Below are positions 8,077 through 9,696 of a stretch of DNA of 10,028 nt, in pieces. A program made the translations under genes and the position numbers. The DNA lies in contig JAJRTK010000312.1 of assembly GCA_024278345.1 (NCBI GenBank), forward strand, positions 1 through 10,028, written 5' to 3'. Source of the DNA: a bacterium. Its GTDB lineage: Bacteria; CSSED10-310; JAJRTK01. The number at the start of each line of letters is the position of its first letter. The stretch's first letter is position 1. The notes below the pieces were generated by a model. That model was not told the origin of the DNA and searched no databases. It saw nothing but the letters and a program-made list of their open reading frames with translations.

Positions 8077-8101
8077 CGGAAAAGAGGTTTGATCTTTTCC
8101 G
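8077..8101. promoter_or_regulatory. Perfect 9-bp inverted repeat upstream of phaR
   Basis: CGGAAAAGA (8077-8085) and TCTTTTCCG (8093-8101) are exact reverse complements around GGTTTGA. No T-tract follows, so it is not a terminator. Its place between the groEL terminator and the phaR start suggests an operator or a leader hairpin. It does not share the TGC-N3/4-GCA core seen before the granule-protein gene. No clean promoter is visible in 8035-8165. Confidence 0.5.
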
Positions 8102-8165
8102 CGCTTGCATCTTCACGAAACCCCTGCCAAGGATAGTGTGCCCCCTCTAGGAACTGGGAGAAACC

Positions 8166-8798
8166 GTGCCGAAAAAGCTCATTATCAAGCGCTATGGAAA
8201 CCGCCGGCTCTACAATTCCGACTCCAAGAGCTACGTCAAGCTTCGAGACATCGCGGAGTTCATCCGTCAGGGATCGGAGATCCAGGTTCTTGACTCTAGA
8301 ACTGGCGAGGACATCACGAAGCTCATTCTGACGCAAATCATTCTGGAAGAAGAAAAAAGCAAAAAAGATCTCCTGCCGATCTCCTTTTTGTATGATCTCA
8401 TTCGACATCAACAAGGCTGGGTCCAGGAGTTCTTCCGAAAACATATCGCCAAGGCGTTGGAGAGCTACTTTCCGGCCAAAACGGACCTCGTTGGGCAAAT
8501 CAAGCAGTCCCTTGACTTCCGCTCCGCAAGCGGGCTTTTCGAGCGGATTCTTAGCCCGAAGAACCCATCGGAAAAAGCGGTTCCCGGAGAAGGCGACCAT
8601 CCGGTGGAGGACGCCTCTTCCGCTCTAGAAGATCCAGGGGAAATCGAAGAATCCCCTTCTTCTCCCTCAGAGGATTGTTCGGGCGAAGCAACCCCTCCCA
8701 TGGTGGCCATTACGGTTTCGGAGCTCCTCAATCGCCTGGCGACGATGGAGCAACGCCTGTCCCATCTGGAGACGCGGCAGCCGGAAGACGAAGAATAG
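8166..8798 (+). CDS. phaR: PhaR-type polyhydroxyalkanoate synthesis regulator
   Basis: This 210-aa protein is a DNA-binding regulator of PHA storage. Known PhaR proteins repress the granule-coat (phasin) gene, bind nascent PHA and release DNA when polymer appears. The N-terminal PHB/PHA accumulation regulator domain spans about 4-64: KLIIKRYGNRRLYNSDSKSY (4-23), then LRDIAEFIRQG, VLDSRTGEDIT (41-51) and LTQIILEEE (55-63), all diagnostic. Residues 70-115 are a helical segment (QGWVQEFFRKHIAKALESYF). Residues 133-178 form an acidic Ser/Pro/Glu-rich linker, and 183-204 form a short coiled coil. The start is GTG 8166, with GGGAG (8156-8160) 5 bases upstream and conservation beginning at residue 4. 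A strong terminator follows. The next gene is a granule-associated protein, its expected target. PHA synthase is not in the window. Confidence 0.9.
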   Translation: MPKKLIIKRYGNRRLYNSDSKSYVKLRDIAEFIRQGSEIQVLDSRTGEDITKLILTQIILEEEKSKKDLLPISFLYDLIRHQQGWVQEFFRKHIAKALESYFPAKTDLVGQIKQSLDFRSASGLFERILSPKNPSEKAVPGEGDHPVEDASSALEDPGEIEESPSSPSEDCSGEATPPMVAITVSELLNRLATMEQRLSHLETRQPEDEE

Positions 8799-8856
8799 AA
8801 AAGTAAGCCGGGAAATCCGTGACGCGATTCCGGGCAAAAGTATTGTGCCTCACCAG

Positions 8857-8881
8857 CTCCCCGCTGCCGGGGAGTTTTTTT
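8857..8881 (+). terminator. Intrinsic terminator of phaR
   Basis: CTCCCCG (8857-8863) and CGGGGAG (8868-8874) form a perfect 7-bp stem around CTGC, followed by seven T (8875-8881). It ends the phaR unit 58 bases after its stop. Confidence 0.93.
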
Positions 8882-8888
8882 AGTTTCA

Positions 8889-8904
8889 TTGTGCAGTCGC
8901 ACAA
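8889..8904. promoter_or_regulatory. Palindrome TTGTGC-N4-GCACAA, candidate PhaR operator 1
   Basis: TTGTGC (8889-8894), AGTC, GCACAA (8899-8904) form a perfect palindrome. The same half-sites recur at 9123-9137. A lone TTGTGC half-site is at 8843-8848. It lies 74 bases upstream of the -35 box of the candidate granule-protein promoter. The TGC-N3/4-GCA core resembles what I recall of PhaR sites in alphaproteobacteria. The link to PhaR is inference. Confidence 0.5.
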
Positions 8905-8977
8905 CGAACTCTTCGAAATCCATGGCAACTCCCCCCTCTTGGCCAGAAACTTTTTTTCGCAAATGCACAGACATGCC

Positions 8978-9006
8978 TTGACAAATGGCTGTGGAGTAAC
9001 TACATA
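8978..9006 (+). promoter_or_regulatory. Candidate promoter of the granule-associated protein gene
   Basis: A perfect -35 TTGACA (8978-8983) is followed after exactly 17 bases by TACATA (9001-9006), a weak -10. It would give a leader of about 170 bases containing two of the three palindromes. A second, poorer candidate is TTGGCT (9085-9090) with CATACG (9108-9113). Confidence 0.5.
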
Positions 9007-9067
9007 GAAACGTGTAAGCAGTGTGGATCACTTGAGTTGGTCCAAGTTTGAGATTTCGCACATCGTT

Positions 9068-9080
9068 TTTGCTCTGCAAA
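9068..9080. promoter_or_regulatory. Palindrome TTTGC-N3-GCAAA, related candidate operator
   Basis: TTTGC (9068-9072), TCT, GCAAA (9076-9080) is a perfect 5-bp inverted repeat with a TGC-N3-GCA core. It lies downstream of the TTGACA promoter candidate. It shares the core but not the outer bases of the two TTGTGC palindromes, so it is the weakest of the three. Confidence 0.35.
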
Positions 9081-9122
9081 GATCTTGGCTCCTCCAACGG
9101 AGTTCCACATACGCGTTCGCGA

Positions 9123-9137
9123 TTGTGCGGCGCACAA
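9123..9137. promoter_or_regulatory. Palindrome TTGTGCG-G-CGCACAA, candidate PhaR operator 2
   Basis: This is a perfect 15-bp palindrome, equal to TTGTGC-N3-GCACAA with the same half-sites as 8889-8904. It lies 37 bases before the ribosome site of the granule-protein gene, where a bound repressor could block transcription. As RNA it would form a short strong hairpin, so a leader role is an alternative. Confidence 0.55.
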
Positions 9138-9186
9138 AAGATGGACCCGGAATAGGAACTGAGCCCACAGAATGAGGAGAATTGCC

Positions 9187-9696
9187 ATGACAGCCGTTGA
9201 GAAGATCATCCCCGAGAGCGCACGCCAAGCCTTCAAGAACGTCCAAGAACAGACTGAAAAGACTGTTCGAAGCGTGATCCCAAATAAGACCTTCCAAACT
9301 ATCAGGGAGGTTCAGGAAGGCACGGAAAAACGCGTGAAAGATCTCCTTGATCGCGGAGAAGAAAGCCTTCATACCCTCCGTGAAAAGATCGACCCGGCTT
9401 TCCGGTTCAGCGAAGATCTGGTGCGCAAGGCCCGAACCAATGCCGAGTGGCTCCAGGAACAGATCGAGCTTGGTGTCAATAAGACTCTGGAAGCTTTGCA
9501 CATTCCCACGCAGCCTGAAGTCGAAAAGCTACAGGCGTCTCTCACGCGGCTTCGCTCCAAGGTCAATACCCTTGATCGCAAGCTCCGGAAGCTGAACCAA
9601 GAGCAAGCCAAGCCGGCCATGCGGCGAAAAACAGCAGCCAAAAAGACCACGCGAACAACCAGGAAGTCTTCCGCGACAGCTTCGGCCAAGGCGTAG
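9187..9696 (+). CDS. PHA granule-associated protein (PhaF/phasin-like) with leucine zipper and histone-like tail
   Basis: This 169-aa protein would coat PHA granules in the cytoplasm. Residues 1-105 are amphipathic and helical, with an internal repeat: VQEQTEKTVRSV (19-30) and VQEGTEKRVKDL (42-53). HIPTQPEVEKL (105-115) matches the linker typical of PhaF/PhaI granule proteins and opens a leucine zipper with L115, L122, L129 and L136 in one heptad register and V112, L119, V126 and L133 in the other. Residues 142-169 are a Lys/Arg/Ala/Thr tail like histone H1, which in PhaF binds DNA nonspecifically and helps granules segregate. ATG 9172 is in frame, but its codons include the ribosome site GAGGAGA (9174-9180), which is 6 bases before ATG 9187, so 9187 is chosen. 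It follows phaR with its own promoter region. The phasin assignment rests on architecture and context as much as on sequence motifs. Confidence 0.78.
   Translation: MTAVEKIIPESARQAFKNVQEQTEKTVRSVIPNKTFQTIREVQEGTEKRVKDLLDRGEESLHTLREKIDPAFRFSEDLVRKARTNAEWLQEQIELGVNKTLEALHIPTQPEVEKLQASLTRLRSKVNTLDRKLRKLNQEQAKPAMRRKTAAKKTTRTTRKSSATASAKA

Follow-up and report, generated by a model that had tools for sequence, protein, structure and literature searches.

The window, by which we mean the whole stretch of 10,028 nucleotides that was analysed, carries a phaR homologue (8166..8798, forward strand) followed by a phasin-like gene resembling those of PHA-granule proteins (9187..9696, forward strand; 169 amino acids), whose ATG has an AGGAG upstream. 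Between them lies a gap of 388 bases (8799-9186). The PhaR protein has a PHB_acc_N DNA-binding domain at residues 6-65, in an NRRLYN variant with arginine at residue 14 (R14), and passes the Pfam cut-off for PF07879 (90.7 bits against 25; E 6e-26); its gene is the sole PF07879 gene in the window's genome. The match to the NCBIfam model TIGR01848 is nearly full-length and, at 102.2 bits, just below the cut-off of 109.45. We therefore label the product a PhaR homologue, short of NCBI equivalog status. The downstream product is the genome's top match to PF05597, yet it scores 25.4 bits against a cut-off of 28.8, and 28.1 bits with TIGR01837, far below the cut-off of 94.7. Scoring below both curated phasin cut-offs, it is classed as phasin-like only.

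The window's PhaR shares an RRLY[N/H] motif with alphaproteobacterial PhaRs, and a tree groups it with them (support 93/95), although this placement carries a long-branch warning. Structure prediction for residues 1-105 (window 8166-8480) suggests a DNA-binding domain with a beta-beta-beta-alpha-beta-alpha order, with pLDDT of about 90-96 across residues 11-60. This beta-rich prediction is unlike the helix-turn-helix by which papers describe the PhaR DNA-binding domain. When the predicted domain was compared with solved folds, no match was convincing (best Z 4.3), and a sequence search for a related solved structure found none. The missing fold match does not show that the modelled fold is novel.

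Downstream of phaR, a stem of 9 base pairs leading into a T run forms a likely intrinsic terminator (8855..8876, forward strand), for which the evidence is moderate, since the terminator scan yields 2.2 comparable sites in shuffles. This hairpin probably ends the phaR transcript, and the phasin-like gene would therefore need its own promoter. The sequence-only reading, an earlier examination of this DNA, had proposed one around a TTGACA box. The candidate -35 box is indeed present (8978..8983, forward strand), but the candidate -10, TACATA at 9001-9006 after a 17-base spacer, is a poor match, and a promoter scan of the window detected nothing there.

The same reading had drawn attention to four features in this gap as a candidate PhaR operator set, all of which are confirmed by the sequence. 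Two are perfect palindromes with TTGTGC half-sites: TTGTGC-AGTC-GCACAA, with a four-base spacer (8889..8904), and TTGTGC-GGC-GCACAA, with a three-base spacer (9123..9137), which is the best predicted operator in the window. The third, TTTGC-TCT-GCAAA (9068..9080), is weaker. These three fit known PhaR sites, whereas the fourth, a lone TTGTGC (8843-8848), is unsupported; the hexamer has no partner half, and was dropped as background. A further candidate, missing from that list, is TTTCGC-AAAT-GCACAG (8955..8970), which also has a four-base spacer and sits 7 bases upstream of TTGACA. None of the four retained sites is assigned a strand. Their centres (8896.5, 8962.5, 9074 and 9130) spread over about 250 bases, and the best palindrome lies 49 bases ahead of the start codon of the phasin-like gene, for which the family score is below cut-off and the promoter only a candidate. 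A TGC-RNY-GCA core with a three-base centre is present at 9123-9137 (TGC-GGC-GCA). The site at 8889-8904 deviates from it by its four-base centre, and that at 9068-9080 breaks the R at the first base of RNY. The absence of a good motif before phaR, also claimed earlier, was borne out: the only four-base-spacer match there (8094-8115, score 11.0) is at background level, since a match within coding sequence at 1017 scores as high, and was rejected as an autoregulation site.

Could such a cluster arise by chance? Simple dyads with 5-base arms are common enough to lend this idea some substance, as at least three occurred in 101 of 2000 shuffles. The exact motif behaves differently. TTGTGCN{3,4}GCACAA has two matches in the window and none in 200 dinucleotide shuffles, and the genome-wide scan suggested alongside the earlier reading finds it only at the same two gap sites in 6.06 Mb, with no control matches. 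A further 116 genomes (344 Mb) contain 28 matches, or 0.08 per Mb, a density from which about 3e-5 would be expected within the gap. We therefore regard a chance cluster as very improbable. Looser patterns are barely above controls in the genome (7 against 3; 5 against 3; and 120 against 95 with two mismatches). Regarding other targets in the genome, the matches examined to TGTGCN{2,5}GCACA and TKNTGCRNYGCANMA, together with near-exact matches, fall inside open reading frames or overlap them; for one site, TTGTGC-GCT-GCACGC (L037), an intergenic position is possible, flanked by a methyltransferase gene and a weak sulfotransferase-like frame, with no PHA link.

A weight matrix points to the same positions; it was built from 16 Sinorhizobium meliloti sites whose promoters are listed as being bound efficiently by PhaR. 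Over the window it ranks 9120-9140 first (16.4) and 9064-9084 second (9.9), with the third scoring only 5.6, and the best score was equalled or beaten in just 8 of 2000 shuffles. When the centre is lengthened by one base, the matrix gives 19.3 for 8886-8907 and 16.8 for 8952-8973; other loci, totalling about 0.55 Mb, contain no score as high as 19.2 and a single one of at least 16.7. Judged by the density in other loci, about 0.03 sites as good as the weaker one at 9068-9080 would fall in the gap by chance.

Characterised PhaR sites provide the closest comparison. Consensus sequences have been reported for S. meliloti (WNWD2NYGCRNYGCRNH2WNW; PMC12542648), Bradyrhizobium diazoefficiens (TGCRNYGCASMA, from footprints; PMC6201568) and Ralstonia eutropha (YTKNTGCRNYGCANMAR; PMC12849132), and sites for Herbaspirillum seropedicae (TG[N]TGC[N]3GCAA; PMC3206438) and Rhodobacter sphaeroides (CTGCN3GCAG; cited in PMC3206438 and PMC12542648). 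The sequence-only reading had likewise associated TGC/GCA palindromes with alphaproteobacterial PhaR. The palindrome at 9123-9137 is letter-for-letter the 15-mer TTGTGCGGCGCACAA of S. meliloti SMc00103, a site predicted within a PhaR-repressed module, binding at which was not evaluated in that study (PMC12542648). It agrees with the S. meliloti consensus at 19 of 21 positions, fits TGCRNYGCASMA fully on both strands, and, at 9122-9138, matches 16 of 17 positions of YTKNTGCRNYGCANMAR. The R. sphaeroides site has the same TGC-N3-GCA core, but with CTG/CAG arms in place of the window's TTG/CAA.

The S. meliloti PhaR (AniA) operator also shares with the window the TTGTGC half-site, the three-base RNY centre and a position ahead of a phasin or phasin-like gene. 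Indeed, S. meliloti phaP1 bears TTGTGC-ACT-GCACAA (PMC12542648), so the longer half-site is not, as had been supposed, a peculiarity of this lineage. The arrangement does differ. Sites in S. meliloti flank the -35, and the B. diazoefficiens phaP1 pair lies 6 bp either side of it (PMC6201568), whereas those in the window span about 250 bases, include four-base spacers and stand where phaR adjoins the phasin-like gene. R. eutropha belongs to another phylum and has several phasin genes. Of the two spacings noted earlier, the three-base one is familiar; a four-base spacer of equal score was found in none of the alphaproteobacterial loci, and it is, like the wide spacing of the sites, an unusual feature of the window. 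Four alphaproteobacterial records, together 10.6 Mb, were scanned for the exact motif and contain four matches, three of them directly before phasin genes (S. meliloti phaP1, and Phasin_2 genes in Shinella and Methylobacterium), and the exact motif is therefore a good marker of phasin promoters. The fourth precedes an S. meliloti haloacid dehalogenase gene (SMc00103-tam region) in the predicted PhaR regulon. One 3.7 Mb record, CP090106.1, is titled S. meliloti plasmid pSymB and bears phaR and phaP1; as both are chromosomal in the reference, it is probably the chromosome under a wrong title.

We propose that the gap palindromes are operators for the PhaR encoded just upstream, which would repress the phasin-like gene, and we consider this interpretation quite probable. 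PhaR, probably as a dimer, would read each (Y)GC half-site with its TTG/CAA arms around an RNY-type centre, and its occupancy of the palindromes would keep the phasin-like gene repressed. When a hydrophobic storage surface appears, PhaR would be titrated onto it and the gene would come on. Since the sites are far apart, looping or roadblocking may, speculatively, add to promoter occlusion. Release of PhaR by storage granules has been described in R. eutropha and others, PHA being the surface in characterised systems; by analogy, binding, repression and granule release may operate in the window.

The palindromes could instead be operators of a different regulator acting on the phasin-like gene. 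TTGTGC/GCACAA half-sites are not exclusive to PhaR, and uniqueness in the genome shows a local role without naming the protein. What makes this unlikely is the identity to PhaR sites, RNY centre included, the adjacency to the genome's only phaR, and the ties of the alphaproteobacterial copies of the motif to phasins. It is harder still to credit that the palindromes work at the RNA level, as hairpins in the leader of the phasin-like transcript, instead of serving as protein sites on DNA. A hairpin of six base pairs could form at 9123-9137 within the putative leader, but the fold of that leader is no better than those of shuffled sequences (z 0.22), Rfam gives no match for it, and 8889-8904 lies upstream of the candidate promoter. 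The initial observation is real, and its interpretation as a PhaR operator set is supported as largely right.

The identity of the signal is the weakest step in the proposed PhaR mechanism. Searches with PF07167 and TIGR01836 found no PHA synthase in the window's genome (87.9% complete), and PF07167 also had no match in seven genomes of the same phylum. To call this locus a PHA circuit therefore goes beyond the evidence, with the phasin-like protein scoring short of its curated cut-offs and the searches yielding no PHA synthase; PHA as the signal for this PhaR is unproven. Where phaR occurs without a PF07167 synthase, accompanied in the window by a phasin-like gene, PhaR may sense something else. 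Alternatively, the synthase may be missing from the assemblies or too divergent. The question raised by these genomes is what PhaR senses there.

In many other phyla, too, PhaR-type palindromes stand ahead of phaR and of phasin genes. We compared 80 named PhaR loci and 14 further ones (L005-L018). Across these 94 loci TGC-type palindromes are scarce and the TTG-type motif is absent, which might be read as non-proteobacterial PhaR loci having no operator. That reading was rejected, as it reflects a TGC-only search and the core there is CGC. The pattern TRAYGC-RNY-GCRTYA, with up to one mismatch, has 74 matches in 43 of the 94 loci, against a single match for the reversed-pattern control (430 kb). 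A coarse sorting assigns 20 of the 74 to positions ahead of phaR and 26 to positions ahead of small phasin-like genes. Nine of these small genes were compared with PF05597, and seven scored over its cut-off. TGACGC-type pairs are typically 24-33 bases apart, and many Chloroflexota and Rokubacteria loci carry strong palindromes of this type (for example, L101 1456-1615, L102 2018-2056 and L117 2091-2129). Among the 14 loci unselected by residue pattern, seven have a TGACGC-type match (control 0), that of L012 lying inside coding sequence. Three from the window's own phylum carry perfect 15-mers (L014 546-560, L016 1836-1850 and L017 1778-1792), each immediately ahead of the phaR frame or overlapping its 5' end. 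A scan of the genome collection with a single protein gave no matches. One record, L085 (BNCN01000001.1), is titled Comamonas sp. KCTC 72670; its PhaR domain does not differ from the Myxococcus xanthus one, and the record is probably mislabelled or mixed.

TGACGC-RNY-GCGTCA is put forward as the predicted PhaR operator for Chloroflexota, Rokubacteria and three same-phylum genomes, a proposal new here; no description of TGACGC-type PhaR sites was found in the literature searched. These loci resemble the window in their YGC-RNY-GCR core, have their sites before phaR and phasin genes, and differ in their TGA/TCA arms, CGC core and a PhaR with lysine at residue 14 (K14). The window itself has no TGACGC-type site, even at two mismatches. 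Because perfect PhaR-type palindromes precede phaR in three same-phylum genomes, the window's lineage may once have had autoregulation and lost it, rather than never having had it.

The site types also correspond to the reader. PhaRs at TGACGC-type loci have RKLY, RKMY or RKFY, and RRLY is found in the window's PhaR, in six from alphaproteobacteria and in three from gammaproteobacteria. Residue 14 splits the two types fully (K with TGACGC, 43; R with TGC, 7), although the pattern of the second scan forced NRK and so pre-selected this residue in L041-L120, such that only the unselected set (L005-L018) and a plasmid set count as evidence. The independent evidence is therefore small, since the named loci were selected for K and the alphaproteobacteria form a single clade. 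From a Pseudomonas veronii plasmid comes an NRRLYD-type R14 PhaR, with two TGC-type sites about 120-160 bases before an annotated phasin gene. Unlike its same-phylum relatives, the window combines R14 with TGC-type sites. In the model, residue 14 is placed just before a predicted strand of the beta-rich domain.

We speculate, with confidence evenly balanced for and against, that there are two coupled operator classes built on a YGC-RNY-GCR core. R14 would read TGC with TTG/CTG arms (Proteobacteria and the window), and K14 would read TGACGC-RNY-GCGTCA (Chloroflexota, Rokubacteria/Methylomirabilota, other phyla and the three same-phylum genomes). In the window's lineage, reader and matching site would then have been exchanged together, either through transfer or by parallel change. 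If this code is true, residue 14 becomes a candidate specificity residue in the PhaR DNA-binding domain. The locus extends a known PhaR switch to a little-studied phylum with a precise candidate site, but the cross-phylum comparison, rather than the window alone, is the interesting part: it supplies a predicted PhaR operator for many phyla, for which none is described as far as the literature searched shows.

Two further features lie towards the ends of the window. At the contig start, an open frame (2-505) resembles the C-terminal part of an IS-type integrase or transposase (DNGPQF...YYPQSNGKIERWHQSLK). Near the contig end, 9958-10014 holds a perfect 26-base direct repeat, ACGGCACGCCGTGACCCTCCCTGGAC, with a start-to-start distance of 31 bases.
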